Part shown: positions 6,762-49,037 of the stretch, in pieces
Position numbering within the stretch: position 1 is the first letter of the stretch
How the letters are laid out: every line of letters starts with the position of its first letter
IMG/VR virus record: IMGVR_UViG_3300050821_003742
Span: 1 to 64,000 of that record
Origin: a virus
Length of the DNA: 64,000 nt
Direction: 5' to 3' (one strand)
Notes under the pieces: model-generated
The model's database searches: none
What the model saw: only the letters and a program-made list of their open reading frames with translations
What the model was told of the DNA's origin: nothing
Translations under genes and position numbers: made by a program

Positions 6762-8068
6762 TGATTAGGTTTCTTTCTCTGCTGTTCATCTTATCTCCAG
6801 CATTTGCGCAGATGCCTATGGGCGGAGTTACCAGTAGCGCATGCGGTCCGGTGACTAGCGGACATGTGTACAACACTACGTTTCCCCTTACCGAAGTTCC
6901 AATTTCAGAATGCGGTAACTGGACGAATGGCGGCGCATTCGGCTGGAACAACGTTAACACTACAACCAATCTGGCTTACGGAACACAGTCTGGGGCAAGT
7001 AACGATTTCAAGGATTCCACCGCACTGCTTGGTGGGACATGGGGAAACGACCAACAAGTTTCTTTTATCATCAAGAATGGCAATCCGGGAACATCACAAC
7101 AGGAAATAGAAGCGAGGTTAAGAAGCCATCTGGCATCTAATAGTTCAACTGGGTATGAAGCTGATTTCATCATAAGTCCAGCCGCTAGTTGTGGTGCTCA
7201 AAATGTCCGTTGGAATGGAGCAGTGGGTAATTTCACGGTTCTTGGTAATCAACCGATGACCTGTCCAGTAACCGGGGATACGTTCACCACCACAATGATT
7301 GGTACAACGATGAAGCTGTATTCTAATGGTCTGCTATTAGTAACCAGTACTGACGCTACCTACGCTTCTGGCCAACCAGGGATGGGGCAGTATTTTTTCG
7401 GTACTGGAGCAACTGGAACGGACTTTGGTCAGAGTTCGATGCGTTTCACAGATAAGCCGTTACATTCGGTAGCGCATACTTCGAAAGATAATACCTCTAC
7501 GGCGGTTGCACTTACAGCCATTAATACAACCGGAGCTACGGAGATTGTAGTGGTGGTGTTTTGGAATTCAACCACTAGAACAGTTACCTGTACTGGCAGT
7601 ACATCCGGGGCTTTGTCCGCCATTACCGGCCCTACCACGATTACTGGATTGTCTAACTACCGCATGGAGATATTTCACAAGGACAATCCCACAACGGGAG
7701 CATCAGACGCTATCACCTGTACGCTATCAGGTTCTGGAAACATAGATATCGGGGCTGCCGCTAGTGCGATTATGGGGGTTTCTGCTGTCGATCAAGCCCC
7801 GGCTATTCATGTCGCTACGGCTGCTACGGCTGCTGCTACGACAACCTCGACAACTACAGCGGTTGATGAGTACTTGATAGGCGCATGCGTTCTCGGGGGC
7901 AATTTGACATTAGGTAGTCAAACTACCCAATTCAGCTTGCTAGAGAATACCAACTTCGGTGGGAATGCTTTCTATGATGGCATCTCTGTTAAGTTGCAGA
8001 CCATTGCATTTAGCGTAAGTCAAGGTGCGTCAAATCCATACGGTTGCTGGGCTGGAACATTCAAGTGA
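6761..8068 (+). CDS. Secreted-type lectin-like virion or envelope protein
   Basis: 435 residues. The start is the ATG overlapping the previous stop (TAATG); an upstream Met at 6743 would add a non-signal extension. It begins with a signal peptide (MIRFLSLLFILSPAFA-Q). Residues about 30-230 form a concanavalin/LamG-like beta sandwich. This domain contains NTTFPLTEVPISECGNW, closely matching the N-terminal domain of the next gene. The rest (about 245-435) looks like an immunoglobulin-like beta domain found in phage tail proteins. A role in glycan binding is inferred. It is coupled to the neighbours by one-base overlaps on both sides. Confidence 0.7.
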   Translation: MIRFLSLLFILSPAFAQMPMGGVTSSACGPVTSGHVYNTTFPLTEVPISECGNWTNGGAFGWNNVNTTTNLAYGTQSGASNDFKDSTALLGGTWGNDQQVSFIIKNGNPGTSQQEIEARLRSHLASNSSTGYEADFIISPAASCGAQNVRWNGAVGNFTVLGNQPMTCPVTGDTFTTTMIGTTMKLYSNGLLLVTSTDATYASGQPGMGQYFFGTGATGTDFGQSSMRFTDKPLHSVAHTSKDNTSTAVALTAINTTGATEIVVVVFWNSTTRTVTCTGSTSGALSAITGPTTITGLSNYRMEIFHKDNPTTGASDAITCTLSGSGNIDIGAAASAIMGVSAVDQAPAIHVATAATAAATTTSTTTAVDEYLIGACVLGGNLTLGSQTTQFSLLENTNFGGNAFYDGISVKLQTIAFSVSQGASNPYGCWAGTFK

Positions 8069-11000
8069 TGAAGCGCCTCCTATTGCTCTTGTTTCTTTCT
8101 CCGCTAGGGCTTCTGGCGCAGGTTCCTACGCCGAATACCAACTATCAGACGAACTTTCCACTCACGCAGAATCCAATCTCCGAAGGCGGTAACTGGCTGA
8201 ACGGCAACACGAACGGCGGCGGTAAGTGGGGCAACGTACAGACTACGCCAGGAATGGTATTTGGGACGGTAGAGAGCGCTGGATGCCCTGGAACGGCTAC
8301 GCTTTGTAACGACAACACTGCAGTCCTTACAGGTACTTGGCAATCGACCCAGATGGCCATGGCTACGGTTAGGATTGCCAATAGTAGTGGCCTTACTTCT
8401 GGTGCGCATGAGGTAGAACTACGACTACGAAGCACCATCAACGCTACCGGTGGTGGAACAAACTCAGGATATGAGATCAATTGTTCAGTGAACACTGGTA
8501 ATCCCTACGTTCAAATCGTTCGATGGAATGGGGCGTTAGGTAGTTTTTCTTTACTTAACTCCCAGAGTCCAGGCTCTGCATGCGCGAATGGTGACGTGCT
8601 AGCAGCTACTGCCATAGGATCGACTATCAGCGTATATAAATCCTCCGGTGGAGGATCTCTTGCATTAATTTTTAGCGTTACAGATTCAACGTTCAGCGGC
8701 GGATCTCCAGGCGTAGGATTCTTCAACAACAACGACACAAATCAAAGTTTCTTCGGCTTCTCGAACTTCACCGCATGGGATGGGCCCGCTGCTGCGCAGA
8801 TGATTCTTCCAGCCACATGTAGCCAAGCCAACGTGTCATCGGCGCTAACAAGCATCGCCAATGATGGCAGCGTGGTGCTAATTCCCCCTGGTACTTGTTT
8901 GTGGGCTTCAGGGATTAACTATACGCAGACTAAGACGTTCGTGCTCGCGGGAGCTGGGGCAATTTCAGGCGATGGCAGCGGAAGTAACACCAGTGGAACG
9001 GGCTTCGACAATACCATTATTCAAGACGGCGCTGGCGGCAATAATGTTCTGACGTTTACGTTCATTAACGGGAAGTCCTCTAGGATAACAGGATTCGCAC
9101 TAGCCGAAGGGTCCGGAGGAGCAACTAAGAATGGCGCACAACTCCAACTAGGAGGCTCGTCCGTATCGACCCGTCTTGACCATATGCACTTTAATCAGCT
9201 TCATGGCGGGTCCGTGGTTCAAGTAGAAGGATGCGTATATGGAGTTGGGGATCATAACCAGTTCGATGCCATCCTTTCTGAAACAGCCTTTAGCTTTAGG
9301 TATCACCACGGCAACTGTAATGGGGACACAACCAACAACGGAAATGGTACTTGGGCCGCTGCCGATCTCTGGGGGAGCAGTTCATTCTTCTATACCGAGA
9401 ATAACAACTTTCAAATGTTGCCGTTGAATGCGTCCGCTGGCGCTCATAACTTCGACTTTGATTGTGGCCGTGGTGGTCGTTTCGTGTTCCGCTATAACTA
9501 CAGCGGGTTCCGCATGATAACGCAAACCCACTTCGATCCCGGAGGAAGCCCCAACGTTCCCATTCGCCCTTGCCGCGCTCACGAAGAGTACAACAATATC
9601 TTTGCTTGGAGCACCAGTCCAAGTACAGACAGCGGGGGAATGCTTGAAGATAACGAGTCTGGCGCAGGATTGTTTTACAGCAACACTATCAGTGCGCTGA
9701 CCACTGTACAAAGGGTGCAGATAACTCGCCAGAATAATGCTACGTATACATGGGCAGCGCCTCCAAACGGATGGGGCTACTGTGGTACTGCTAACGGACC
9801 AAGCAATTGGGATGAAAATACGGGCAGCACGGGATACAGATGCTTGGATCAAGTGGGAGCGGGGCAGGGCGATCTCCTAACCAATACTGCTCCAAACAAC
9901 AACCCCACAACGAATAGCACTACGGGATGCGTTTCAAGCCAATCATGTGCATGGCCACGGGAAGCACTTTCCCCTTGGTATGTGTGGAATAACGCATTTT
10001 CCCCGGTACCAAATGCTACGAATCATTTATGGGCTGATTTCAATTCCCCCACTCCAGTTGTGGAAAACAGGGATTATTATCTCAGCCTTCCCAATGTCAA
10101 TGAACCAGGAACGTTTACGGGCGCAACCGGAATGGGCTGCGGACCTACCGCAGCGGGACTTTGCACTACGCCCGTAGCGCGTCCCGCCACTTGCACGGCG
10201 GGGCCGACGACGAACAGCCCGTACAACACACCAGGCTCGCCAGGGGTCGGCTACTGGGACAACAGCACAACTCCGGGCAAACTGTACGTCTGCACGGCCA
10301 CGAACACTTGGACCCCGTACTACACGCCGTACACTTACCCACATCCTTTGGTTGGCGGGGCAGCTCCTACCATAGTTATTCCAACGGTAACAACAACAAC
10401 GGCTACGAGTATAACGACTACAACGGCATCTTCTGGCGGAACGGTGACATCCAATGGAGGAGACCCTAACGGAATTTCCTCCGAGGGTGTATGCTACGCA
10501 ACAACGGCGAATCCAACTTCGCCCTGTACTTCGAACGGTACAGCAAGTCCATTTACCAGTTCCATATCTGGATTGACAACCAACACCCTATATCACTACA
10601 GGGCTTTTGCAGCTAATACTGCAGGTACTGGATTTGGAAGTGATCTTACATTCACCACACTAAGCAATGGAGCAGTTCCTCCTTCGTTCAGTCCGGCGCC
10701 AGGAACATATACAACCCCACAGAACGTAGTGCTTACAACAACTACTCCCGGGGCGCAGATCATCTATACCATGGATGGTGACGTTCCAACGTCTACCAAT
10801 GGAGCGTTCTATTCCAGCTACGGACCCATAGTTGTTTCGTTTACCGATACGATCAAGGCATATACTACTGCTCCCGGATTCGTGGATAGTCCGGTTGTTA
10901 CCGCAACATACACGATTAATCCCGGTCCCGGACCTCAGCAGAACTACACGGTTCGTACCGATAAGAACGGTGCAGCTCCGGAAGATTGGACAACAATACC

Positions 11001-14000
11001 TATTCCCTGTTCTCCTGCGCCGTGTAACTTTGCCGTATCGGATGTTAACGCAGGTATGATGTACACCAAACTAAGCGACTATAATTTCCCTGCCCCTTCG
11101 TCGTTTGGATTCTACTATGGAATGGTTAATTCCAAGGTCAATCAGTGGGAGATGAACGATAACGAATTTGTAATTAATGAAAATCCCGGTGGTGGACTAA
11201 TCGTTCTCAAGTTTGATCCCGTGGCGCAGACGGTATCCAAGGTTAACTGCACGCGCAGCGCTTCAGGTTGCAACGATGGTAACAATCTGTTCATCAACCT
11301 AATTACAAATGCTACGTATCTTAACAATCAACCCCATAAATTAATTGGATTCAACCGTTTCACCCGTTCGATGTTGACTACGGAAGATTATACGGCGATG
11401 TTGACCAATCCGACTGGTTCGCCAATCCTAACGGATATAACTGCCAGCACTGCCGTGAATTGTCCTGGAATACCAACATCTAAAGTAAATGCCAACAACA
11501 CTGGTAACCTAGTTGTCAGTGCGGACGATCAAAAGGCTGCTGAAGGCTACGGTGGTGGACAGAACGCCTTTATGCTTCTGTACTTTTTTGATGCAACTGC
11601 TAATGCAGGAGCTGGTGGTTGCCGCTGGTTTGACACTTCCACTGGAACAATAGGTGGAAGCTATGGACCTACGGGATCTGTTCAATCATTCGATGATAAC
11701 GGAAATCCTATAGCATGGATAAACAACAGTACCATCCACAGTCTGGATCTTGATCGCAGCGGGACACTCCTTAGCTGGCAATTTTTAACTGATCCCGGAG
11801 GGCCAGCTTGCGTCAACAATACGAAGCAGTGCGAAGATGCATGGCGTTGGGACGTTACTAGTCTTAGGGCGTATAGACTTAATTACAACAGAACACCACA
11901 ACACATGTTTGGCCACGACGTTGCACTTTATAATGGTTGGGCATGGGGTTGGTATGGTCTATCTACATTTACCACTGGCATCATCAGCGTCCCGGGCATA
12001 AACCTGATCCCGATTCTTGGTAACAACGCTACTGGAGATCTTCCTACGGCATTCAACGTATTCTGTTGCGACTCGCACGAGAACGGAAACAACCAATTAC
12101 CGGCTGTAATACCGTCATCGTTCTTCGGAATGCATGTGGCATATGGAACTACTTCCTATTCGACGCCAATTTTGCCACCTATCATTGTTGGTGAGCAGGG
12201 TAAACCGGCTGGTACCAACTGGCCCTATCTTGAAAGCGCTAGGGGAACTTATAGCTTTACTAACTTGGATAACGCAATGGTTTTTTCCCAGGCTAATAAT
12301 GCTCCTCTGTTTTATAGCTTTGAGGATGAGCCCATATGGGCCGTGACCGATACCAGCGGTTGCGTTGCTGGGGCTGGAGGGACCCAGAAATGTCCCTCTG
12401 CACCTTCAGATTTAACCGTTAGTGCCGCTTGCCAAGCTCCATTGCTGGGCACAACTACAACGGATTGTCAGTTAAAAGAGTTCGTCACTACCCTGGTGCA
12501 GCGTTATAAGAGCACTGGGACTCAAACAGGATGCACTGCCGGCAATCCGCAATGCAATGGCGTAATTCCACTATATGAATCGTGGAATGAGCCCATAGGT
12601 CTTGGTACCGGTGGAGTTCTAACCAATGCTCAGCTTGTAACCCTATCAACAGACTATCTAAATACTATAAGAGCTAATGATCCTAATGCCAAGGTATGTT
12701 CTCCGGCATTCACCATCAGTGCGGCTTTGCCGTCTCGTTCTACGCTGATGCAAAACTTCTTCTCTGGCGGTGGTCCCACAACTTACGACTGCTACGATTT
12801 CCATATCAATGAAACTACTCCAGAAGCACAGATTGCGGACATAAATACGTTCAAAGCTAACTTGACTACGGCAGGTGTTGTTAATCCTACCATCTATGCC
12901 ACGGAAGCTGGACGCTGGGGTGGATGCGCTACGTCCGTATCTGGCATGACGCAGCAAGCTTACATAGGCAGAATTGAATTGTTATATGCCAGTAACAACG
13001 TCAAGCGTCACTACTGGTACGCCTATGACATCTGCCCTGGCTTAACAAATCAGCCTGGGACTTCAACTCTCAATGCTGCTGGTATCGGATATGGCAACGT
13101 AGAAAGTTGGATGATTGGGGCCAACCTATCTACTCCGTGTGCTGCCAATGGCACGGTGTGGACTTGCGGCTTGACCCGTCCAAGCGGATATAGAGCGTTG
13201 GCGGTGTGGGATACGTCGGGTAGCAGTACCTTCTCGGTTCCCAGTCAGTACACTCAATTTCAAGACCTGGAAGGGAATACTACTGCGGCCGGAGCTACGA
13301 TAACTATTGGTACTGAACCCATTCTATTGGAGAACGGAACTATACCATCTAACTTGGCAGGACCGTATCCACTCAACCCCGTGGTATGGGCTCCGTACAT
13401 GGACGTGAATCCTCCAAGTCCATGGGTTGATGAGTTTCTAGCTACAACACTGGATGGATTCAAGACTACTTACAGGTTTGCTCATTTGTTTGATCGATAC
13501 CACGAAGATACGCAGGGACATAAGGACTTTACGTCTTCGGCTCTGTGGCAGATATCTCATGATGGACAGTGGATCATATGGGCTTCCGACTGGACAGGTA
13601 CGAGGGATGATGCGTACCTTGTATCCTTGAATCCTACAAACTCGGTAGCTGCTCCTACGTTCAGTCCTGTTGGCAATGCAACTTATGCAGCAACGCAGAA
13701 CGTAACTATACTTACTGGACCACTGGATACCGGCGTTACCGTGCATCATTGCTTCGACAATACACCATTGACTCCGTGTACACCCAATGTTACCGGGACC
13801 ACGGCAACAATAAATTCCACGGGATACTTGAGGGCTAACGTTACTGCAGCCGGTAAGACTACCAGCGCAACTTCGTCAGCTCTTTACAGTATAGGTTCAG
13901 GTCTAGCTGTTCCAACGTTTAATCCGTTGCCAGGGGTCTATACCACAACTGGAATGAACATTACAATGACTCCGCCAAGCGGAGCAACGGTATGTTTCAC

Positions 14001-15255
14001 AATTGACGGATCAACTCCCACTGATGATGGCAATGGAAACTGCCTCCATGGAAACATTTTCCCGAATCCTATTCTATACAATCCGCTTCCTCCGCAAACG
14101 CTAGCGTGGCCAAACTGTATATCACCGTGCAATATTAATGCCATAAGTATTCAGGTTGGACAAACAGCTTCGGTTATGACAACCGGAACCTTCACTACGT
14201 CATCCGGAACGGTTGCCTCGCTTACTCCAGCCACGCTGGCATTCGGGAATCAGAACATAAATACGACCAGTACGGTGCAACTGGCTACGCTTACCAATAC
14301 CGGAACAAATTCCGTGACCGTTTCCGCCGTTACAATAGCGGCAAACTTCGCACGTAGCGGTGGAACATGTTCTCTAACTGTTCCATTCACACTGGCAGTG
14401 GGGGCAAGTTGCACCATAGGGGTTAACTTCACTCCAACCGTGGCTCAGAATTACAACGGAACATTGGTCGTAACTTCCAATGCTCCTACGCTAACTACCA
14501 ATCTTACTGGGACTGGAACAACTCCGGCGCAGCCAACGGCAACATTACTGCCAACAACGATGGCGTTCGGAAATCAAGCTATAAACACTACCAGTTCTCC
14601 CATCTCCGCCACATTGACAAATACAGGTACGGTCAACGTTAACGTAACAAGCGTAACGGTGTCTCCTAGTATTTTTGCAGAATTAACTACTGACACTTGT
14701 CCTAATGCACCGTTTACATTGCCGCCAACCACTAATAACTCTTGTACCATTGCGGCTACGTTCACTCCCACCGCTGCGCAGGCTTATAGCGGAACATTAT
14801 CAGTGGCTTCCAACGCGCCTACGCTGACCGTCAATCTTACCGGAACGGGAACCAATACCGTTGCAACATCGACGCTAACTCCTGCTTCTTTTAACTTTGG
14901 ACAGGGCTACATTAATAGTTCGAATGACAAATCAACGTTTACATTTTCCAATACTGGATCGGTTGATATCACCGTTTCTAATGTCATAGTTTCTGGAGCA
15001 GACTTTGTATACAGTGGCGGAACGTGCCCCAACACCACTCCAACTACTCCATTTACGGTTCCTGCGGGAACCTCTTGTTCATTCATTATTACATTTACTC
15101 CGCTATCTCCCGGTAATAAGAGTGGATCGCTTTCGGTAAATAGTAACTCATCAAATGCCAGCCAGTCTTCGTTCTCTGGCGTAGGAATTCCAGTTCAAGT
15201 ATTCACCGGCTCTGGTTCGGTAAGCGGAAACGGTTCCGTAGTGGTGAGACCATAA
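8068..15255 (+). CDS. Giant multidomain tail protein with embedded GH-A-type glycosidase
   Basis: 2395 residues, starting at the ATG that overlaps the previous TGA. In order: a signal peptide (LLLLLFLSPLGLLA-Q); a LamG-like domain (about 25-240); a beta-helix resembling pectate-lyase tail spikes (about 245-700); a fibronectin-like and a chitobiase-C-like beta domain (about 770-950); a propeller-like stretch (about 960-1340); a TIM-barrel glycosidase-like region (about 1350-1750) with YESWNEP (candidate acid/base E1508) and YATEAG (candidate nucleophile E1613); more propeller-like sequence; two chitobiase-C-like domains; and three choice-of-anchor-D repeats (about 2050-2390). The family within clan GH-A cannot be fixed. 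The repeats resemble acidobacterial secreted proteins, suggesting acquisition from the host. Confidence 0.75.
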   Translation: MKRLLLLLFLSPLGLLAQVPTPNTNYQTNFPLTQNPISEGGNWLNGNTNGGGKWGNVQTTPGMVFGTVESAGCPGTATLCNDNTAVLTGTWQSTQMAMATVRIANSSGLTSGAHEVELRLRSTINATGGGTNSGYEINCSVNTGNPYVQIVRWNGALGSFSLLNSQSPGSACANGDVLAATAIGSTISVYKSSGGGSLALIFSVTDSTFSGGSPGVGFFNNNDTNQSFFGFSNFTAWDGPAAAQMILPATCSQANVSSALTSIANDGSVVLIPPGTCLWASGINYTQTKTFVLAGAGAISGDGSGSNTSGTGFDNTIIQDGAGGNNVLTFTFINGKSSRITGFALAEGSGGATKNGAQLQLGGSSVSTRLDHMHFNQLHGGSVVQVEGCVYGVGDHNQFDAILSETAFSFRYHHGNCNGDTTNNGNGTWAAADLWGSSSFFYTENNNFQMLPLNASAGAHNFDFDCGRGGRFVFRYNYSGFRMITQTHFDPGGSPNVPIRPCRAHEEYNNIFAWSTSPSTDSGGMLEDNESGAGLFYSNTISALTTVQRVQITRQNNATYTWAAPPNGWGYCGTANGPSNWDENTGSTGYRCLDQVGAGQGDLLTNTAPNNNPTTNSTTGCVSSQSCAWPREALSPWYVWNNAFSPVPNATNHLWADFNSPTPVVENRDYYLSLPNVNEPGTFTGATGMGCGPTAAGLCTTPVARPATCTAGPTTNSPYNTPGSPGVGYWDNSTTPGKLYVCTATNTWTPYYTPYTYPHPLVGGAAPTIVIPTVTTTTATSITTTTASSGGTVTSNGGDPNGISSEGVCYATTANPTSPCTSNGTASPFTSSISGLTTNTLYHYRAFAANTAGTGFGSDLTFTTLSNGAVPPSFSPAPGTYTTPQNVVLTTTTPGAQIIYTMDGDVPTSTNGAFYSSYGPIVVSFTDTIKAYTTAPGFVDSPVVTATYTINPGPGPQQNYTVRTDKNGAAPEDWTTIPIPCSPAPCNFAVSDVNAGMMYTKLSDYNFPAPSSFGFYYGMVNSKVNQWEMNDNEFVINENPGGGLIVLKFDPVAQTVSKVNCTRSASGCNDGNNLFINLITNATYLNNQPHKLIGFNRFTRSMLTTEDYTAMLTNPTGSPILTDITASTAVNCPGIPTSKVNANNTGNLVVSADDQKAAEGYGGGQNAFMLLYFFDATANAGAGGCRWFDTSTGTIGGSYGPTGSVQSFDDNGNPIAWINNSTIHSLDLDRSGTLLSWQFLTDPGGPACVNNTKQCEDAWRWDVTSLRAYRLNYNRTPQHMFGHDVALYNGWAWGWYGLSTFTTGIISVPGINLIPILGNNATGDLPTAFNVFCCDSHENGNNQLPAVIPSSFFGMHVAYGTTSYSTPILPPIIVGEQGKPAGTNWPYLESARGTYSFTNLDNAMVFSQANNAPLFYSFEDEPIWAVTDTSGCVAGAGGTQKCPSAPSDLTVSAACQAPLLGTTTTDCQLKEFVTTLVQRYKSTGTQTGCTAGNPQCNGVIPLYESWNEPIGLGTGGVLTNAQLVTLSTDYLNTIRANDPNAKVCSPAFTISAALPSRSTLMQNFFSGGGPTTYDCYDFHINETTPEAQIADINTFKANLTTAGVVNPTIYATEAGRWGGCATSVSGMTQQAYIGRIELLYASNNVKRHYWYAYDICPGLTNQPGTSTLNAAGIGYGNVESWMIGANLSTPCAANGTVWTCGLTRPSGYRALAVWDTSGSSTFSVPSQYTQFQDLEGNTTAAGATITIGTEPILLENGTIPSNLAGPYPLNPVVWAPYMDVNPPSPWVDEFLATTLDGFKTTYRFAHLFDRYHEDTQGHKDFTSSALWQISHDGQWIIWASDWTGTRDDAYLVSLNPTNSVAAPTFSPVGNATYAATQNVTILTGPLDTGVTVHHCFDNTPLTPCTPNVTGTTATINSTGYLRANVTAAGKTTSATSSALYSIGSGLAVPTFNPLPGVYTTTGMNITMTPPSGATVCFTIDGSTPTDDGNGNCLHGNIFPNPILYNPLPPQTLAWPNCISPCNINAISIQVGQTASVMTTGTFTTSSGTVASLTPATLAFGNQNINTTSTVQLATLTNTGTNSVTVSAVTIAANFARSGGTCSLTVPFTLAVGASCTIGVNFTPTVAQNYNGTLVVTSNAPTLTTNLTGTGTTPAQPTATLLPTTMAFGNQAINTTSSPISATLTNTGTVNVNVTSVTVSPSIFAELTTDTCPNAPFTLPPTTNNSCTIAATFTPTAAQAYSGTLSVASNAPTLTVNLTGTGTNTVATSTLTPASFNFGQGYINSSNDKSTFTFSNTGSVDITVSNVIVSGADFVYSGGTCPNTTPTTPFTVPAGTSCSFIITFTPLSPGNKSGSLSVNSNSSNASQSSFSGVGIPVQVFTGSGSVSGNGSVVVRP

Positions 15256-34687: not shown

Positions 34688-35024
34688 ATTCCATCTCCAT
34701 AATCGTCTTAACTTCTACAATCTTTCCCTGCGGCGTAAGATATTCCCTCGTCGTGAATCTCTCCCCCAACACTTCGTTTCGACGCTCTCCAAGGATAATC
34801 GTATGCGTAGGTCTTAACACCTGTCTAAGTATGTTGTCCATGTACCTATCTTTCCAACCTTCCAGCTCCCGAGAACCGATGGAGGGCACCGAACCCGTCG
34901 GTTCTGCTTTAATGCGGTTCTCGGGAGGTCTGGAACCCTTAATCTTGTCCGACAACTTCAGTAGCTTTCTTGCTATTGAGTCGTGATTCGATAATCTTGT
35001 TGATGTTTTCTTCTTCGGTCGCAT
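34671..35024 (-). CDS. Hypothetical protein, 117 residues
   Basis: Overlaps RusA by 17 bases and the upstream gene by 86 bases, so the true start may be later than 35024. Very basic N-terminus (MRPKKKTSTRL) and a C-terminal beta segment (TREYLTPQGKIVEVKTIMEM). No recognised family. Confidence 0.55.
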   Translation of the reverse strand: MRPKKKTSTRLSNHDSIARKLLKLSDKIKGSRPPENRIKAEPTGSVPSIGSRELEGWKDRYMDNILRQVLRPTHTIILGERRNEVLGERFTTREYLTPQGKIVEVKTIMEMEFVKNV

Positions 35025-35142
35025 CTATCCACCGCCTATGGACGGAGTACCACGCATCCCGGGCTACTTCGGCTTCTTTCATTCGCCGTTCCCAAATAGC
35101 AAACAGTCGCAGGTCTTCTTTTCTTAGTTCTTCGATGGTCAT
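34939..35142 (-). CDS. Small helical protein, 67 residues
   Basis: ATG 35142 with GCTGGAGGGCG upstream, a ribosome-site context reused by other genes here (39866, 40235). Amphipathic helices (MTIEELRKEDLRLFAIWERR). Unknown role. The long overlap with 34671-35024 is noteworthy. Confidence 0.6.
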   Translation of the reverse strand: MTIEELRKEDLRLFAIWERRMKEAEVARDAWYSVHRRWIDATEEENINKIIESRLNSKKATEVVGQD

Positions 35143-35157
35143 AACGCCCTCCAGCGT

Positions 35158-35313
35158 TTATTGATTTACCGCTTCTAGTTTTTTACTCTCTCTCTTCACA
35201 TTCCACAGCCGGGACTTACATGCTGGACATGCCAACGGTAGTTCTCTCGACCTTGGCAGCCAATTGTGCTCGCAACGCTCGCATGTAAGTCCCGTAATCT
35301 TTATTGTTTTCAT
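35158..35313 (-). CDS. 51-residue zinc-ribbon protein, apparently leaderless
   Basis: Starts MKTIKITGLTCERCEHNWLP and continues with PLACPACKSRLW; the two CxxC knuckles form a classical zinc ribbon common in phages. The ATG at 35313 lies 8 bases after a near-consensus -10 box, with no room for a ribosome site, so the message is probably leaderless. Confidence 0.8.
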   Translation of the reverse strand: MKTIKITGLTCERCEHNWLPRSRELPLACPACKSRLWNVKRESKKLEAVNQ

Positions 35314-35321
35314 TGTATCTT

Positions 35322-35350
35322 ATGATAACCCCGTTTCTCCTATTTGTCAA
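35322..35350 (-). promoter_or_regulatory. Sigma70-type promoter, leaderless type
   Basis: On the minus strand, TTGACA (35350-35345), 17-base spacer, TATCAT (35327-35322). The expected transcription start falls 1-3 bases before the ATG at 35313. It lies between two genes of the same direction, giving an internal promoter for the recombination module. Confidence 0.75.
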
Positions 35351-35358
35351 CAACTATT

Positions 35359-35499
35359 TCAAGATGTTTCGAGCAATTCCAGCACAGCTTGGCCAATTGC
35401 AATAATCAGTCGACGAAGACCTTCGTCTCCACTTGTGGGTGCGGCCTCAAGTGATTCATGTAATTCCTTTATCAGTGCTTCGTAGGTCATTTCGGTCAC
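35359..35499 (-). CDS. Small helical protein, 46 or 65 residues
   Basis: I prefer GTG 35499, which overlaps the preceding peptide's stop as GTGA; MTYEALIKELHESL begins three codons later. The frame is open up to a GTG at 35556, which would add YRCRNC, a possible zinc knuckle; the choice between the two is uncertain. The C-terminal part LRRLIIAIGQAVLELLE is an amphipathic helix. Confidence 0.5.
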   Translation of the reverse strand: MTEMTYEALIKELHESLEAAPTSGDEGLRRLIIAIGQAVLELLETS

Positions 35500-35618
35500 T
35501 TTGTCCTCGCTATCTGAATCAATACGTAGATCACAGTTCCTGCAACGATACGCCACAGGAATTCCCAGCCGCGTGCCCGGTGTTGGAAATCATGCTTGAA
35601 ATGCTCCCAAAGTTTCAC
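35496..35618 (-). CDS. 40-residue membrane peptide coupled to the methyltransferase
   Basis: GTG 35618 overlaps the methyltransferase stop (GTGA) and its own stop overlaps the next GTG. Basic/aromatic N-terminus (KLWEHFKHDFQHRARGW), then one hydrophobic helix (FLWRIVAGTVIYVLIQIA). Evidence is the chain of overlaps plus the clean helix. Confidence 0.5.
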   Translation of the reverse strand: MKLWEHFKHDFQHRARGWEFLWRIVAGTVIYVLIQIARTK

Positions 35619-36214
35619 TTCGCGGACCTTTGTTCGATGATTCGCTCGACATAGTCCGCTACGCAGTTGGCCAGCTCTGGTGGGATGATCGCCAGGTGCG
35701 CAGCCTGTTCTTTACGACTATATGGAAGGTTTTTGCGAAGCCGTTTCACCTTATCAGTGCTCATGTGTAGGGCACCTTTTAGAATGCCCCGGTTTACCAG
35801 TGGGGGGGTTGCATTACCCCACAAGTGAAATGGCCAACAGTTTTGTATGGATTCGCCTACGAAAGCCTCTGCTGACCTTACGTTCTCCATCACGTAAAGG
35901 ATGCCTGATGTCTCACACAATTCTCGCGTATAATTAAATAGCTTTATGCCCAGTTCCGGGTACGGCGGATTAGGGTGAAAGTGCTTCATGCCATGCACGC
36001 TGAACTGCTCGCATGGCGAACTAGCGACAATGAAATCAAACCGACAAACTTTGATTATTTTCGCTGTCCATTCAAGAATGTCGTCTTGTACAAACTCACA
36101 ACCGGATGGTGTCTCAGGTGGTTCCACAAGGTCCACGCCAACACACTCCCAACCCCGCGCAGCAAACGCCCTGCTCCAGCCCCAGCGTCCGCAGAATAGG
36201 TCCAGTAGCTTCAA
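35615..36214 (-). CDS. DNA cytosine-5 methyltransferase, compact
   Basis: 199 residues with a TTG start overlapping the upstream stop (TTGA). Motif I LLDLFCGRWGWSRAF, catalytic Cys68 in SSPCEQF (motif IV, PCE rather than PCQ), and motif VI ME110-NV. Full-length C5 enzymes exceed 300 residues with a target-recognition domain; this one is a short phage form, so specificity may be relaxed or partner-dependent. Probably protects phage DNA from restriction. Confidence 0.8.
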   Translation of the reverse strand: MKLLDLFCGRWGWSRAFAARGWECVGVDLVEPPETPSGCEFVQDDILEWTAKIIKVCRFDFIVASSPCEQFSVHGMKHFHPNPPYPELGIKLFNYTRELCETSGILYVMENVRSAEAFVGESIQNCWPFHLWGNATPPLVNRGILKGALHMSTDKVKRLRKNLPYSRKEQAAHLAIIPPELANCVADYVERIIEQRSAK

Positions 36215-41712: not shown

Positions 41713-41907
41713 ATGAGCGACAAAATCATTATGGACAAGCTCTACGAACTGTACGATGACCTTGGTTCGTGGGCCAACGTTGCTTCAAAAATTGGAATAT
41801 CTCCGCAATATCTCAGCGACGTTGTTACCAAAAGATGCAAGATAAGCAACAAGCTGGCCGAGAAGCTTGGCTTTAGAAAGAATGTGGAATTTGTTGAAAA
41901 ATCATAA
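41713..41907 (+). CDS. Helix-turn-helix regulator (Cro/C1-like), 64 residues
   Basis: HTH core: WANVASKIGISPQYLSDVVT, with the usual A-x3-G-x-S pattern and a following basic segment (KRCKISNKLAEKLGF). Size fits a Cro-type dimeric repressor. Its leaderless promoter and position at the head of the rightward late block make it the main candidate for binding the operators at 36857 and 40990. Confidence 0.8.
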   Translation: MSDKIIMDKLYELYDDLGSWANVASKIGISPQYLSDVVTKRCKISNKLAEKLGFRKNVEFVEKS

Positions 41908-42253
41908 AGTCTACATTTTGATTGATCCACGAGACGGAGAGATTCGTTACGTCGGAAGAACACAATTATTGTTGAAGGACCGTCTTTCCAATCACATTCA
42001 TTCAAGAAATCAGTATACGCGAAGGGCTGGATGGATAAATGAACTTCTCGAATTGGGATTAAAGCCTGATATATTGATGATTCAGGATTGCGGAAGTGAC
42101 ATGATAGGAGTTGATAGAGCGGAAGAACAGTGGATTCGCAGGTTTTCTCTTGCTGGTTGTCAACTATTCAACGGTTCGGTTCATGATGAAAATATAATGT
42201 TTGGGAAGAAAATGCCCAGACCTGAATGGGTTCCATTACAATATGGCCGGTAA
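41882..42253 (+). CDS. GIY-YIG endonuclease
   Basis: 123 residues from ATG 41882, overlapping the HTH gene by 26 bases. Signature: VYILIDPRDGEIRYVGRT (GIY-YIG variant YIL...YVG with R26), then DRLSNHIH and RAEEQWIRRF carrying the conserved Arg/His/Glu. Free-standing GIY-YIG nucleases are usually homing enzymes. It sits just upstream of the packaging genes. Confidence 0.8.
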   Translation: MWNLLKNHKVYILIDPRDGEIRYVGRTQLLLKDRLSNHIHSRNQYTRRAGWINELLELGLKPDILMIQDCGSDMIGVDRAEEQWIRRFSLAGCQLFNGSVHDENIMFGKKMPRPEWVPLQYGR

Positions 42254-42929
42254 AAAGACCGTCAAGGACAAAGAAACCGGCGAATGGAAGGTTGTTCCTC
42301 GCCAGGGACCCCCGCGCAGGGATACCTACTTCCGTAGATTAGAAGATTCTATTGAGAAAGACGAACTGCTAGAGGTTCTAGACGCTTCTACCGATGAACG
42401 AGCCCATCATCTCATGTTGAGAATGCTAGATCCGGTAATTGGAAAGCGTACCCTGCCACAGTTAGCTAAGGAAGTCGGTCTATCCTACGCCCAGGTCCTC
42501 CAGCTCATAACCCGTCACAACGTGGAAGCAGGCATCCTCGCAATGGCCAGACGGGCTCCCAAGGTCCTTGAAGACGTAGCCATAGATTCAGAATCAAAAG
42601 AGGTGAAATGTGGACAGTGTAAAGGAACGGGGGAAATTGATGAGTCCGGAAGTACGGGAAGTAAAGGAACCGGAGAAGTTACGGAAACGGATAGTCCGGG
42701 TGAGGATCGACACAGCACATGTTTTGTATGCGATGGAACGGGAACTCTCCGTAAAGTCGGAGATGAAGCATCTCGTAAGCTCATGTTCGAAACTCTTAAG
42801 CTTACTGGAAGAGGAACTGGCCCCCAAGTCCAAGTTAACGTAGGTAGTAACCAGACCATGGAAGATACCATTGCAAGCGTTAGAGATGTCTTAGATGTGA
42901 AAGCAGAGCCGGATGACAAACAAAGCTAG
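42243..42929 (+). CDS. Terminase small subunit candidate with DnaJ-like zinc pairs
   Basis: 228 residues; ATG 42243 chosen over 42201. A helix-turn-helix-like segment (LPQLAKEVGLSYAQVLQLIT, about 95-115) fits DNA recognition. CGQCKGTGEI and CFVCDGTGTL form two CxxCxGxG units as in DnaJ zinc centres, unusual for terminase small subunits. The C-terminal tail contains GTGPQVQVNVGSNQ. Placement two genes before the large-subunit ATPase supports packaging, but regulation is an alternative. Confidence 0.5.
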   Translation: MAGKKTVKDKETGEWKVVPRQGPPRRDTYFRRLEDSIEKDELLEVLDASTDERAHHLMLRMLDPVIGKRTLPQLAKEVGLSYAQVLQLITRHNVEAGILAMARRAPKVLEDVAIDSESKEVKCGQCKGTGEIDESGSTGSKGTGEVTETDSPGEDRHSTCFVCDGTGTLRKVGDEASRKLMFETLKLTGRGTGPQVQVNVGSNQTMEDTIASVRDVLDVKAEPDDKQS

Positions 42930-43143
42930 GCTCTACCTCTTCCTAATATGCGTACTAGTGGCAATAATTGTATCTATGCTATTCGGCTGCGCTCCCGTGC
43001 GCCACGGTGCAGCTCCAGTTCCCGGTTGTATCGACGCTTCCGTACAAGTTCCCAGTGGTTGCTATGCGAATTCGATTCCAGACGGAGTAGAAGTTCGGTG
43101 TCCCACTAGTACCAATACCTATCGCTGTAAAGGAAAGAAATGA
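42913..43143 (+). CDS. Small lipoprotein
   Basis: 76 residues. Signal ICVLVAIIVSMLFGC with lipobox Cys, then a short periplasmic part with four more Cys (GCIDASVQVPSGCYAN, RCP, YRC) that may pair as disulfides. Precedes the secreted protease with a 4-base overlap, so they may act together at the envelope. Confidence 0.7.
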   Translation: MTNKARLYLFLICVLVAIIVSMLFGCAPVRHGAAPVPGCIDASVQVPSGCYANSIPDGVEVRCPTSTNTYRCKGKK

Positions 43144-44081
43144 AAGTTCTAATCCCGGCTCTGTTATTTGCTATACCAGTGTTTGCACAAAAGGATATTC
43201 ATTGTCTTAAGCCAGAAGGGTGTTTCAGCATAGATACCCATGTCAACGATGGTGAGTTGCGCATTGATAGGGGCAGCGGAAAGGTTCTAGATCATCGTTC
43301 TGGCCAAGACCTAATAAAATACATCTACTCCGCTACCGCACTGCTCTATCAGCAATCCGCTGACGGTGGTATGCACATGGATTGCACCGCTACGGCATTT
43401 GAGAAGACCGCCACGGGCTATCTCTTCGCCACGGCGAGCCATTGTGTGGGCGAAACCGATAAGGAGCACGAACGTGTCGAAGTCACTAAAACTAGGTTTT
43501 ACATTACTTTTGACGAAAAGGAAGAAAAGAAGTTTTACCCCGCCAAGCTGGTTATGGCTGGTTATCAGCCCAAAGGGGATGACTTCTCTATCCTTTCAAT
43601 CGAAACTGAAGATAAGGTTCCTCTGGTTCCTCTGGGTGATGAGAAACTGGAGGAAGCAGGAAGTTCCGTTGTCAACGTCGCTAGTCCGAACGGCCTTGGA
43701 AAACAAGCGTTCCATGGTTATGTCAGTTCTCCGTTTGTTGATAGGCCCGTTGTAGAGGACGACATAAACTGGCAAGGAGTGATGTTACTGCAGATACAGT
43801 CAGGTCCCGGGAGCTCAGGTAGCGCCATCATTAGTGCCAAGCAAGAAGCCATCATCGGTTTTCTCGTGGGTCACTTCGGAGAGAACACCTTCGTTATGCC
43901 GGTAAGCCGATTCCGTGCGTTCAAAGCAGCAGTAGAATCAGGAAAGTACAAATACTTCAAGAAGGACCAGGTAGAAGACGTAATGCCTGATAAGCCCGTG
44001 GGAAAGATAATCTCGGTACCGGCAACCGGATGGTTCGATCATGAAAAGACCAAGCCTGAGAGGCTAGATGTCCCTCATTGA
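43140..44081 (+). CDS. Secreted trypsin-like serine protease
   Basis: 313 residues. Signal peptide MKVLIPALLFAIPVFA-Q. Chymotrypsin-fold triad in order: H101 (FATASHCVG), D147/D148 (KGDDFSIL), S226 (GPGSSGSAI). No PDZ domain, so simpler than HtrA. A phage-encoded exported protease between packaging genes is unusual. It could degrade host surface proteins, protect from periplasmic defences or assist release. Coupled to the lipoprotein upstream (ATGA). Confidence 0.85.
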   Translation: MKVLIPALLFAIPVFAQKDIHCLKPEGCFSIDTHVNDGELRIDRGSGKVLDHRSGQDLIKYIYSATALLYQQSADGGMHMDCTATAFEKTATGYLFATASHCVGETDKEHERVEVTKTRFYITFDEKEEKKFYPAKLVMAGYQPKGDDFSILSIETEDKVPLVPLGDEKLEEAGSSVVNVASPNGLGKQAFHGYVSSPFVDRPVVEDDINWQGVMLLQIQSGPGSSGSAIISAKQEAIIGFLVGHFGENTFVMPVSRFRAFKAAVESGKYKYFKKDQVEDVMPDKPVGKIISVPATGWFDHEKTKPERLDVPH

Positions 44082-44307
44082 AATCAATCCGGATGTAAAG
44101 CTTCTAGTCAAAGAACTGAAGCGTATAGCCTCGGCCCTTGAAGCGTACCTCATGCTCGTGCATCACTACCGTCAGGAACCGGTGAGTATTAAGGAGCTCC
44201 AGGGCGAAGAACCGGACGTAAGCTACTCCAGCGACGAAGAAACCATGAAACGGGAATTTGAGATAGCCATTGGAAGGGCTAAGGATGTTCTCTCAGAAGA
44301 CGATTGA
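44068..44307 (+). CDS. Hypothetical helical protein, 79 residues
   Basis: Overlaps the protease end by 14 bases and the terminase start by 23. Two helices (KLLVKELKRIASALEAYLML; EFEIAIGRAKDVLS) with an acidic loop. Not recognised; could be a packaging accessory. Confidence 0.65.
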   Translation: MSLIEINPDVKLLVKELKRIASALEAYLMLVHHYRQEPVSIKELQGEEPDVSYSSDEETMKREFEIAIGRAKDVLSEDD

Positions 44308-45493
44308 ACGAGATCAGTCCCGCGTGGAGGCCGCTACCAAGCTTACGCTCAATCGTTATTCCATTGCCGAGGTCCAAACCCGTAAGGCCGATTTCAAAAG
44401 GTTGGTCAAGGATGACGGCACGCTATCCCGAGATCTTAATATGGATGAAAAAGCCTTCATCCGAAATGAGCAACTTCTATGCATGATCGACTTCCGTTAC
44501 TGGTTACAGCGCTATGCCTCTTTACTTATGGATCAGGGTGGGCTTGGCTCATTCGCCGAACCATGGGAAAGCCAAGAAATCCTCCTAAGGGTAATAGCGG
44601 CAATTGAAGATGAAATGTTTGAAATGGCCCTTAGGGGAGATTCCGTGGATGGAATACTCATATTCCTGCATAAAGCCCGTCAACTCGGTGCTACGGCCAT
44701 CGCAAGGGCCATTAGCTGCCATTCCATGCTATCCAAGGAACACACCCGCGCAATGGCAGCATCGGTAGACGAAGACAAAGTATTGGAACTATATGACAGA
44801 GACAAACTTATTATTGATAATCTTCCTTTCTATCTTCGCCCTAGTGTTGGTTTTGACGAGAAGGCGCAACACATCTTTTTCGACAAGCTTGGCTCCAGGG
44901 TCATTTATCAACTCGGAACTCAAAAAAGCGGTTTGGGACAAGGAAGGCAATTTGACGTTACTCATCTCACTGAATGTGCCTCTTGGCCCTATCCGGGAAT
45001 TATTGAACACGACTGGATGCCAACTATCCCTCAATCCTTACGAGCTTTTGCTCTCCTTGAGTCTACCGCGCAAGGACGCGGCAACTGGTGGCACCAGCAA
45101 ATCAAAAAGCTCCAAGAACATCGGCTAAGACGCTGGCACCTAGTCTTCATACCATGGTATGCGGAAGTTAAGAAGTATCGTGCTACGCCACCAACGGACT
45201 GGAATCCTTCAGACGAAGCCATGGCGCATGCAAAGAGGGTATGGGAGACCTCAAGCAAATATGTCGGAAAAGAAACCGTGCTCAGCAGGGAACAACTCTA
45301 CTGGTGGCAATCAACCCGAGATGAATACTACCTCAGTAACAACCTGGCCGTGTTCTATACCAATTACTGTGCAACAATTGAAGAATCTTTCCAACATCGT
45401 ACTAAATCAGCGTTTGGATACGACACACTTGAGTATTATCGGGCAAGAACTCACGAAGGAACCTCCTACAGATTGGACCTTGAAACTGCATGA
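44285..45493 (+). CDS. Terminase large subunit, ATPase half (split gene)
   Basis: 402 residues; ATG 44285 with GGAAGGG upstream. It carries the degenerate P-loop KARQLGATAIARA (about 130-142) and the Walker B/catalytic segment FDVTHLTE230 of P22/lambda-type packaging motors. The C-terminal linker (LSREQLYWWQSTRDEYYLSN, then EESFQHRTKSAFGYDTLEYY) is also typical of this family. The protein stops exactly where the nuclease domain should begin; that domain is encoded 1.85 kb downstream at 47345. The TGA overlaps the next ATG. Confidence 0.85.
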   Translation: MFSQKTIERDQSRVEAATKLTLNRYSIAEVQTRKADFKRLVKDDGTLSRDLNMDEKAFIRNEQLLCMIDFRYWLQRYASLLMDQGGLGSFAEPWESQEILLRVIAAIEDEMFEMALRGDSVDGILIFLHKARQLGATAIARAISCHSMLSKEHTRAMAASVDEDKVLELYDRDKLIIDNLPFYLRPSVGFDEKAQHIFFDKLGSRVIYQLGTQKSGLGQGRQFDVTHLTECASWPYPGIIEHDWMPTIPQSLRAFALLESTAQGRGNWWHQQIKKLQEHRLRRWHLVFIPWYAEVKKYRATPPTDWNPSDEAMAHAKRVWETSSKYVGKETVLSREQLYWWQSTRDEYYLSNNLAVFYTNYCATIEESFQHRTKSAFGYDTLEYYRARTHEGTSYRLDLETA

Positions 45494-46731
45494 TTAAACC
45501 ATCGGATTACAAAACCAAGATCGTTGTTGGCATCCCGTTCTCAGGCCGCTACGTTCCTCCCGAATTCGCCATGGCTCTAGCATCCTTCATCTGGCCGATG
45601 AACATCCGTTACTCCTACGTAGCTTGCAAGGGATTGCCACGCGAGAATGCCCGTAAAGAGATCGTAGCCAATGCCCGTAAGCTCAAGTCCCAGTATGTCT
45701 GTATGCTGGACGATGACGTAGTTCCTCCGTCCGATGTATTCCAAAAGCTCTCTTACCAGTTGGATATGCAACCGGAATTCGACTATATAGCTGGCGTAGT
45801 TCCATCGCGTTCCACTCCGTCAGAACCAATGATCTTCATGAACGAAGAAATGGGGGCTTACTGGCACTGGAGAACCGGAGACGTATTCGAAGTATCGGAA
45901 GCTGCTACCGCCTGTATGATGTTCCGTACCTCCATATTCGATAGTATCCCCGAACCATGGTTTATGGATCTAAACACCATCGAAGAACGTACAGCCGCCG
46001 GAGAAAAGATCGATGAAAATGTTAATCGCGGTGCCATGACAGATGATATCTACTTCTGTAGAAAGGCCAAGAAGTACGGTCATCGTCTACTGGCCCACGG
46101 CGGCGTTATCTGTCAGCACTATGGCCGTCACAGTGAGGTATTTGAACTCGATCCTGGTTCCTATCCGCTTCAGAAGGAAGGATGCAACATAACTGAGGCT
46201 CTTAAGATCGATGGCTGGATGCAGCCTAGGGAACTCCGTTGGCTTGCCGAACATGCCAGCACGAAAACCAATATCCTTGAGGTGGGATCATTCCTCGGAC
46301 GTTCTACCCGGGCATTGGCAGAGAACACCAAGGGAAAGGTAGTAGCCGTAGATACCTGGAACATTTCCGATATCCCCAAAGGTTCAAGAAACGAAGCCAT
46401 AGAGAGCCTTGATAATAAGCCGGTAGATTACATCTATGACCAGTTCCGTACCAACATGCTGGGACTCGATAACGTACATGTAATCAGGATGAAGAGTACA
46501 GACGCCGCCAAGACTATTCCAGACGATCTTAAGTTCGATATGATCTTTATCGACGCCGATCATACCTACGAAGGCTGTAAGGCTGATATCGAGACGTGGA
46601 AACCCAAGTTGAAAGACGGTGGAATGATTTGCGGCCATGATTACAGCTGGGAAGGTGTAGGCAAAGCACTGTCGGAATTGCTTCCCAGCGCTGAACGGGC
46701 TCAAGGCGACTTGTGGTATGTACCCGTATGA
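45490..46731 (+). CDS. Glycosyltransferase-methyltransferase fusion
   Basis: 413 residues. Residues 1-225: GT-A glycosyltransferase with the metal site LDD75-D (MLDDDVVPPSDVF) and PRENARKEIVANA. Residues about 245-413: class I SAM methyltransferase (NILEVGSFLGRSTRALAE, glycine loop; FDMIFIDADHTYEG, acidic post-motif). Such fusions modify surface glycans or virion glycoproteins. It lies inside the split terminase, coupled to the ATPase half by ATGA and to the endonuclease by another overlap. Confidence 0.8.
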   Translation: MIKPSDYKTKIVVGIPFSGRYVPPEFAMALASFIWPMNIRYSYVACKGLPRENARKEIVANARKLKSQYVCMLDDDVVPPSDVFQKLSYQLDMQPEFDYIAGVVPSRSTPSEPMIFMNEEMGAYWHWRTGDVFEVSEAATACMMFRTSIFDSIPEPWFMDLNTIEERTAAGEKIDENVNRGAMTDDIYFCRKAKKYGHRLLAHGGVICQHYGRHSEVFELDPGSYPLQKEGCNITEALKIDGWMQPRELRWLAEHASTKTNILEVGSFLGRSTRALAENTKGKVVAVDTWNISDIPKGSRNEAIESLDNKPVDYIYDQFRTNMLGLDNVHVIRMKSTDAAKTIPDDLKFDMIFIDADHTYEGCKADIETWKPKLKDGGMICGHDYSWEGVGKALSELLPSAERAQGDLWYVPV

Positions 46732-47375
46732 CCAAGGGTGCAATAAATAAAAGATTGTGGATTGCCGCCAATAAACTGGCAGGTAAATGTCGTCGTTGTT
46801 CCAGGTTGTCGGTATGCGATGAAAATGGAAACAAATTAACCTCGTGTGAATATCATCGCAGGCGCAAACGTAAGGTTTTGGGTGTTCATGGCTATACTCA
46901 AGAAAATCTTATGTCCATTAATTACTTTGTTGAGCATACCACTGAAAATGACAGATGCTATGCTGCTGGACTTATTGAAGGAGAAGGATGCTTTCTTCCT
47001 GATGCAAGAAAGCATTCCAAAAGATCATTTCCATCTATCAGGGTTAATATGTGTGATAAAGAGCCTGTAGAATGGCTGTTCAAAATGTTCGGAGGATCAT
47101 TTTCATTTAGAAAATCATTTAATCCTAAGCATATGGATCAGTGGGCTTGGTCATGTGGTGGTCGTAGAGCCGGTGCCGTTGCGGCATCTATTCACAGATA
47201 CATTAAATCTGAAAGGAAAAGAAAAGCGGCTTCCTTGGTTGTTAAATCTGCCAGCATAAGTGGTTGGTGGAGGTCTAACAAATTTGCAACTCTTGATAGT
47301 GTAGTTCAAGTTGTTATTTCCAAGGTGAAAGGAGAATGTATGCTATGGCGGAATCTCCCTCATCGTGGAAGATAG
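46728..47375 (+). CDS. LAGLIDADG-type homing endonuclease, single motif
   Basis: 215 residues from ATG 46728 (overlaps previous TGA). N-terminal Cys-rich basic segment (KCRRCSRLSVC, then SCEYHRRRKRK), likely DNA-binding. LAGLIDADG-like motif YAAGLIEGEGCFL (about 78-90) followed by the usual beta saddle (SIRVNMCDKEPVEWLFKMFG). A single motif means it should act as a homodimer. Lying between the two terminase halves, it is the likely agent of the split. AT-richer than its neighbours. Confidence 0.8.
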   Translation: MTKGAINKRLWIAANKLAGKCRRCSRLSVCDENGNKLTSCEYHRRRKRKVLGVHGYTQENLMSINYFVEHTTENDRCYAAGLIEGEGCFLPDARKHSKRSFPSIRVNMCDKEPVEWLFKMFGGSFSFRKSFNPKHMDQWAWSCGGRRAGAVAASIHRYIKSERKRKAASLVVKSASISGWWRSNKFATLDSVVQVVISKVKGECMLWRNLPHRGR

Positions 47376-48178
47376 GTAACAGACTCGTCGCCCCATATAC
47401 GGCAGATGACGACGATGAAAGGGGAATCCTTTATGTCTGGGAACAACCTAGAAGTACCGAGACTTACGTCGTTTCGATTGATCCTACGGTTGGACGAGCT
47501 GGTTGGACAAGAGAATTCAGAACAGAAGCGGATCTGGACACCGACAATGCATGTGTGGAGGTCTTTCGTGCTGGACGCGGAGGACGCCCAGACGTGCAGG
47601 TCGCTGAGTATGCAGCGCCAATCGACGCTATCGACGTTGCTCCTATTGTTGCAACTATTGGATTACTCTACGGCGGAAGTCATGAGGACGGTCAAGCGCT
47701 TATCATCGGTGAAGTTACCGGCCCCGGAGCAGTCACTCTCCGCGAGCTCATAGACCACTACAACTACTCCAATCTCTGGCAATGGACCCAGTGGGGTTCC
47801 TCCCAGGTTAAACGTACCCAGAACTTCTGGTGGTATTCCTCCCGCAGTGCCAACAAGGACCTTTGGATGCGTGGCATGCACCACATCCAGAAACAAAGAG
47901 TCCAGATACACTCCAAATGGTTAGTAGAAGAGATGGCGGATTGCGTATCCGATATCTGGATGCTGATAGGAGAAGCCCGTTATGGCCGGCATGATGATCG
48001 TGTTATGTCTACCCTATTTAATCTCTGGGCTTTACATGATTGGTCTACCCGGGAAGAACTGGAACCCATGGAAAGACCGGTGGAAACGGGTGCGCCGAAG
48101 TGGGAAGCCTCGGACATGAGCTATGATGAGTGCATAGCGGCATGGAATCAGCGTGTAGCGGACATGGACAATGACTGA
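47345..48178 (+). CDS. Terminase large subunit, nuclease half (split gene)
   Basis: 277 residues from ATG 47345 (AAAGGAG upstream; 47336 is the alternative). It starts with the linker normally joining the two terminase domains (RGILYVWEQPRSTETYVV). The RNase H-like nuclease acids follow: D46 (SIDPTVG), E123 (LIIGEVTGPG) and D217/D218 (GRHDDRVM). Without an ATPase it can only package in complex with the product of 44285-45493. The start lies within the endonuclease gene. Confidence 0.85.
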   Translation: MAESPSSWKIGNRLVAPYTADDDDERGILYVWEQPRSTETYVVSIDPTVGRAGWTREFRTEADLDTDNACVEVFRAGRGGRPDVQVAEYAAPIDAIDVAPIVATIGLLYGGSHEDGQALIIGEVTGPGAVTLRELIDHYNYSNLWQWTQWGSSQVKRTQNFWWYSSRSANKDLWMRGMHHIQKQRVQIHSKWLVEEMADCVSDIWMLIGEARYGRHDDRVMSTLFNLWALHDWSTREELEPMERPVETGAPKWEASDMSYDECIAAWNQRVADMDND

Positions 48179-49037
48179 GAAAAACGTAATCCTGCTAATA
48201 AGTTACGAATACGTAAATTACGAAGTTCTTTCTACCCGTATAGCCGCTCTTTACCCAGCCACCGTCCACGTAGCATCAAAGAATGGTCTTGGCAGGGTGG
48301 TTCTAAACTCCAAAACACGTATCAAGGCCGTTCCCATCGAGTGGCGTCCCAACTATCAGAAGTCCAAGCTTGAAACGAACTTTGATGAGGCCCTAATATT
48401 CTGGGATGGCAACGCCTATAACCGCGTACCCGGGGAATGCAACCTTTTCAGCTCCGCCAAGTTCTTCGAATCTCACAATATCCCCTTTACGGTGATAGGC
48501 CCTGACGCGAAAGAGGTTGCACCATCCACTTTCTATGCTACATTCCAAGGAGAACATAAAATGGGCACTAGACCCAATGTAATAGTCGATAAACCGGTAG
48601 AACAACAGTCCTACGGTAACGACGGCAGCAAAACCAACACCAGAATCAGGGTGACTATCTCTATTCCGGAAGAAATGTACCAGCAATACGAAACTCAAGC
48701 CAAGCTTGCAAAGGTAACCGTAGAGAAAGTGTTAAGCGACAGGCTGCGGCAGTGCGTAGATCACACTAGCGGTCGTGGTTTGTACTTCACCGATGCTCAA
48801 AGGTCCGATATCGAACGTATTACCGGCGGACATCTCATCATGAGTGCTGAACAGGCCCTGGAGAAGATCAAAACTACGGTAAACCTCAAAGTTGGCGACA
48901 TCAACGTTGAAGTAACTGACAGAGTTCTTGCAAGATGCGCCAGTAGGGCCAGGGCAGAGCGAAAAGACTTTGAAACCTACGTAAAGAAGGAAGTTATTCA
49001 AGGATTAGAAAGATCTACGGGTTTAAGGCCGTGGTGA
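48171..49037 (+). CDS. Two-part protein: SLOG/DUF2493-like and ribbon-helix-helix-like
   Basis: 288 residues. The N-terminal 115 residues look like a Rossmann-type SLOG/DUF2493 domain (LIFWDGNAYNRVPGE, then IPFTVIGPD). Residues about 155-195 (TRIRVTISIPEEMYQQYETQ, then VEKVLSDRL) resemble a ribbon-helix-helix DNA-binding motif; the rest is helical. If right, it could couple ligand sensing to DNA or terminase binding. Neither domain is certain. Overlaps the nuclease half by 8 bases. Confidence 0.45.
   Translation: MTEKNVILLISYEYVNYEVLSTRIAALYPATVHVASKNGLGRVVLNSKTRIKAVPIEWRPNYQKSKLETNFDEALIFWDGNAYNRVPGECNLFSSAKFFESHNIPFTVIGPDAKEVAPSTFYATFQGEHKMGTRPNVIVDKPVEQQSYGNDGSKTNTRIRVTISIPEEMYQQYETQAKLAKVTVEKVLSDRLRQCVDHTSGRGLYFTDAQRSDIERITGGHLIMSAEQALEKIKTTVNLKVGDINVEVTDRVLARCASRARAERKDFETYVKKEVIQGLERSTGLRPW

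Follow-up and report, generated by a model that had tools for sequence, protein, structure and literature searches.

The window analysed here, which comprises 64,000 of the 64,035 bases in IMG/VR virus record IMGVR_UViG_3300050821_003742, encodes the large terminase subunit (TerL) in two separate and intact genes, one for the ATPase and one for the nuclease, which are separated by the genes of a glycosyltransferase–methyltransferase fusion (GT-MT) and a LAGLIDADG endonuclease (Table 1). The initial annotation described the same division of TerL and the same intervening genes, and our analysis confirms both: the open reading frames are as described, the two halves are predicted to fold like the two domains of T4 gp17, and the inserted genes have the expected profile matches. 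Those of GT-MT are to Methyltransf_24 (E 1e-18) and Glyco_tranf_2_3 (E 1e-6), and those of the endonuclease to I-MsoI (E 8e-7) and I-AniI (E 5e-5); by motif and fold family, the latter is a predicted homing-type LAGLIDADG enzyme. The PHROG family matched by window positions 46713–47375 (PHROG 5046) is labelled HNH, yet the protein matches LAGLIDADG structures. All junctions had been read as ATGA-type overlaps, which holds for ATPase/GT-MT and for GT-MT/endonuclease (endonuclease start ATG 46728); the nuclease start (ATG 47345) lies instead in a 31-nt overlap with the end of the endonuclease gene. The start of the ATPase homologous to that of relatives is ATG 44285, and an in-frame TTG is also present at 44270.

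Table 1. Genes of the packaging region in the window
Feature	Coordinates	Strand	Evidence or remark
Candidate small terminase, HTH-like segment and CxxC repeats	42201..42929	+	Conserved; lies 5′ of TerL
Conserved protein, 79 aa, just 5′ of the ATPase	44068..44307	+	Profile matches in L003–L006, L018 and L022
TerL ATPase half, 402 aa	44285..45493	+	Walker A KARQLGATA, catalytic E230, motif III LLESTAQG
GT-MT, 413 aa	45490..46731	+	Pfam; conserved position in the window clade
LAGLIDADG endonuclease, 215 aa	46728..47375	+	YAAGLIEGEGC motif; I-MsoI / I-AniI profile match
TerL nuclease half, 277 aa	47345..48178	+	D46, E123, D218; RNase H fold
Conserved downstream protein, 288 aa, C-terminal ribbon-helix-helix-like region	48171..49037	+	
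Portal protein, 639 aa	50052..51971	+	PHROG 332 E 8e-10, PHROG 156 E 6e-6

The candidate small terminase, a role that we infer, has weak matches to DnaJ-type zinc ribbons; its profile finds matches 5′ of the ATPase in most relatives, and a homologue travels with the ATPase in a relocated cassette of one contig (L087). A GIY-YIG endonuclease-like open reading frame lies directly 5′ of this gene (41867–42253), and the packaging cluster also holds a gene for a trypsin-like serine protease with a signal-like N terminus (43140–44081; Pfam Trypsin_2, E 5e-12). Elsewhere in the window, an open reading frame of 2403 aa (8044–15255) matches a PHROG hydrolase in its C-terminal part. The portal protein was used for a portal tree.

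Sequence libraries barely detect either half of TerL, the best PHROG terminase matches having E values of only 0.04 (ATPase) and 7e-4 (nuclease). AlphaFold models of the ATPase and nuclease, built on 16 and 19 relatives, reached mean pLDDT values of 82.9 and 73.1, respectively. The predicted ATPase fold matches the T4 gp17 ATPase domain (2o0j, E 1e-11), with a profile match to gp17 of E 2.5e-4. The predicted nuclease fold matches T4 gp17 (3cpe, E 2e-9) and the RB49 gp17 nuclease (3c6a, E 8e-9), bearing out the assignment as a terminase nuclease, and in the profile comparison with RB49 gp17 the first Asp strand and the HDD motif align. The closest solved structures for both halves are thus those of T4 and RB49 gp17, with the same motif order and the same RNase H nuclease acids, and the terminase is not P22-like as had been proposed; the P22 nuclease (4dkw) ranks far below gp17 in the structure search with the nuclease half. 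The catalytic acids were said to be kept in each half: E230 of the ATPase and D46 and D217/D218 of the nuclease are invariant among relatives, but E123 fits by motif only, its alignment column being shifted in part of the set. The acidic Walker B pair D-E of T4 gp17 is absent, the window and its relatives having T-E with Thr in the Asp position; this change is unrelated to the split, because a fused outgroup (L002) has S-E. The window thus encodes an ATPase with Walker A and the catalytic Glu and a nuclease of RNase H fold, as in gp17-like terminases, although not on one chain. No second complete terminase was found in the record, which gave a single match each for the ATPase and the nuclease and none for Terminase_6N.

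In each of five close relatives (73–83% ATPase identity), TerL is split and GT-MT separates its two parts. The GT-MT of L003–L007 is 48–50% identical to that of the window (about 50% between window and relatives, compared with 71–82% for the terminase halves), and GT-MT also lies between the halves in L038. The LAGLIDADG gene has both occupied and empty sites among relatives: it precedes GT-MT in L003 and L004 and follows it in the window, is missing from L005 and L007, and is replaced by an open reading frame of 86 aa in L006. In the sister of the window clade (L056; support 99/94) the two halves are adjacent, with a 4-nt overlap, which places the split before the arrival of GT-MT; the LAGLIDADG gene was the last to arrive, because it is sited differently in, or missing from, near relatives. 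As the relatives show, the order of events was the split, then GT-MT, then LAGLIDADG. The L005 ATPase ends in RVVEAQGYKIDVERVA, which is also the C terminus of the LAGLIDADG protein in L003 and L004, whereas the ATPase tails of L003, L004, L006 and the window are of the EGTSYR type. On the simplest reading, a LAGLIDADG gene was inserted at the end of the ATPase gene and later lost from L005 and L007, and its last codons would have been left as an ATPase tail, an apparent insertion–deletion scar. If this holds, there is no tight constraint on the extreme C terminus of the ATPase.

Alignment-guided scans yielded 98 distinct contigs with both halves, the window included. Proportions in this survey are skewed towards this clade, owing to the use of profiles of split members for gathering: the halves are adjacent in 44 of the 98 contigs, separated by more than 35 nt in 47, fused in 6 and unlinked in 1. 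Uninterrupted genes, which the initial annotation had proposed seeking in relatives, therefore do occur, but far more members are split with no insert at all. At 90% ATPase identity the contigs form 72 clusters (36 adjacent, 30 gapped, 4 fused, 1 unlinked and 1 mixed); at 70% identity, six clusters contain adjacent and gapped members together, which indicates that junction inserts come and go. These inserts include HNH genes (L017, L026, L054 and L076), a D12-methylase-like fragment (L044), a weak radical SAM match (L055), a 981-aa open reading frame (L057) and many small open reading frames. ATGA and 1-nt overlaps at the junctions recur over deep divergence. We do not claim a strict insertion hotspot at the split, as the junction downstream of the nuclease takes inserts too: a C5 cytosine methylase gene follows the nuclease gene, ahead of the next conserved one, in L003, L004 and L010 (L004:9902–11008) and is absent from L005 and the window. 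A search of cellular genomes for a host returned only two distant fused genes, both in metagenome-assembled genomes.

Several ATPase genes in the set have unusual structures. Those of L067 (1455–3428) and L070 (1496–3490) encode 657 and 664 aa, with an intein that has a LAGLIDADG-like domain near Walker A, and the L139 ATPase (663 aa) is of similar size. The ATPase gene of L026 (5881–7130) is apparently frameshifted near 6690 (299 + 180 aa), which may be a sequencing error, and that of L023 (6172–7122; 316 aa) is without roughly the first 95 family residues.

In a tree rooted on one-gene outgroups (L002, L028 and L029), split members and the fused members nested among them form one clade (support 100/99). 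Fused L073 and L090 have split L080 as their neighbour within a split group of good support, and L063, L064 and L024 are fused at other places in the clade, L024 and a few other rows being long branches. At least five changes between split and fused states are required. AU tests reject one common origin for all split members, whether or not re-fusion is allowed for: constraining all split rows together was rejected (p = 6e-6), as was a single split with re-fusion of L073/L090 allowed (p = 2e-5) or with re-fusion also of L063 and L064 (p = 0.0015). Either an early split with repeated re-fusion or several splits would fit the data, and the direction is not provable.

The placement of the break at the interdomain linker, as first proposed, is borne out by linker lengths counted between two motifs, SFQ at the end of the ATPase and RG at the start of the nuclease. 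Fused members have linkers of 58–72 residues; tail and head of split members sum to a median of 63, and those of the window to 61 (35 + 26). As these lengths are about the same, the break is a stop and start within the linker with no domain lost. Both halves are under purifying selection and are maintained, as indicated by low dN/dS values (L004 versus L005, 0.09 for the ATPase and 0.11 for the nuclease; window versus L004 or L005, about 0.08 for the nuclease). The two halves have been inherited together over a long time; their distances correlate across 89 contigs (r = 0.93), as shared descent alone would also produce. Unlinked halves are known from a single contig (G003, 63,022 bp; IMGVR_UViG_3300027857_000019), in which the sole ATPase gene (34992–36185, minus strand) and the sole nuclease gene (8012–8836, plus strand, beside the portal gene) are about 26 kb apart. 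Its ATPase lies in a small cassette with the usual upstream neighbours, and opposite-strand genes on both flanks mean that one chimeric join would not explain the arrangement.

The closest isolate terminase is that of Tunturiibacter phage Tunturi_1 (PP887698), which has 26% identity to the ATPase and 24% to the nuclease and the same TerL–portal order, but is encoded by one gene (723 aa) and has a longer linker; by tblastn, ATPase residues 1–383 and then nuclease residues 22–252 both fall on it. By extension from Tunturi_1, Acidobacteriota are conceivable hosts of the lineage. The only split-TerL precedent that we found in the literature is Parabacteroides phage phiPDS1, in which the TerL domains were annotated as two coding sequences and a genetic-code or assembly problem was suspected by the authors (PMC10773633). 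Because its second frame opens within the first gene, a frameshift may be involved. We did not retain phiPDS1 as a homologue of this family, because it gave no profile match. In the annotations of some actinobacteriophages, TerL likewise appears as two genes, ATPase and nuclease. Split phage genes near homing endonucleases include Aeh1 nrdA/mobE, T4 gene 60/mobA and phage 25 gene 43A/43B, in the last of which the endonuclease may have entered a gene that was already split (PMC2988022). Two polypeptides likewise derive from one ancestral gene in these cases, with an endonuclease near the break; what sets the present case apart is that the split hits the packaging motor, is lineage-wide and reversible, and has GT-MT in its insert.

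We propose, with a probability of roughly 70%, that a gp17-type TerL was divided long ago, throughout this lineage, into two essential genes, the products of which most likely reassemble non-covalently into a working motor. The sequences show a stop and start inside the flexible interdomain linker, which parts the ATPase from the nuclease and leaves both domains whole. The two proteins most likely come together on the portal through the ATPase–nuclease contact that is also present in tethered terminases, and the pair would package DNA as a two-polypeptide motor; the basis for this is the interface of more than 1000 square angstroms that the domains of T4 gp17 share (PMC9958956). Since the linker has ceased to be coding sequence, the junction tolerates insertions; as the relatives show, GT-MT settled there first and a LAGLIDADG homing-type endonuclease inserted beside it later. 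By the tree, changes between the split and the fused state have occurred several times. The requirement for a hinge in T4 counts against a two-chain motor. The hinge of gp17, a single chain, is reported to be essential for packaging and its separated domains lose translocation (PMC9958956); the split lineage must therefore differ or compensate.

It is unlikely that the halves do not reassemble at all, the ATPase protein translocating alone and the nuclease serving as a separate endonuclease for initiation and headful cutting only. Such independence agrees with the existence of unlinked halves on opposite strands and with a lineage that mostly does without the linker, but T4 translocation requires both domains in full-length gp17 (PMC9958956), and fused relatives nested in the same tree argue for the same architecture in both states. 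About as unlikely is a nuclease that acts as a dissociable subunit and would bind the ATPase ring just for initiation and for termination, perhaps not in a 1:1 ratio.

The initial annotation attributed the split to the insert itself, with a homing endonuclease fracturing the gene and GT-MT carried along as cargo. LAGLIDADG genes, HNH genes and inteins are indeed common in and around the TerL genes of these phages, and Aeh1 nrdA and T4 gene 60 provide precedents (PMC2988022). The 44 contigs with adjacent, insert-free halves, sister lineage L056 among them, nevertheless argue against such a fracture, as do close relatives that are split without the LAGLIDADG gene (L005–L007) and its varying position. 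The proposal is very improbable, being refuted for the window insert by L056 and L005–L007; a homing endonuclease could still have caused the first split, which lies much deeper in the tree. The cargo role of GT-MT is unsupported, the LAGLIDADG gene lying on different sides of it in different genomes and another fusion of this type occurring in L133. That fusion, in an intein-bearing relative, has a methyltransferase of a different family and lies 3′ of the portal gene (L133:8308–9468). Rejoining of the halves after transcription or translation, by an intron, a split intein or a frameshift, is likewise very improbable: inteins exist inside the ATPase genes of some relatives, but about 1.25 kb of other coding sequence separates the halves and one genome has them on opposite strands. 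No Rfam match to an intron or structured RNA was found at the junction, and no intein in the tails at the split point, inteins being present only inside the ATPases of L067 and L070. The contigs are metagenomic, which could raise the suspicion of an assembly artefact or a decaying gene; we consider the chance of either negligible, given the same arrangement in several separate assemblies, the strong purifying selection on both halves and the recurring ATGA and 1-nt overlaps.

Models of the packaging motor of tailed phages couple ATP hydrolysis to DNA movement via a tethered nuclease domain. Here, a lineage of uncultivated soil phages has had this tether removed, restored and even its halves unlinked, in conflict with the textbook T4 case. 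Were the nuclease a dissociable subunit, cutting would be governed by its recruitment instead of by hinge movement. The lineage offers ready-made pairs of fused and split motors for testing hinge function.
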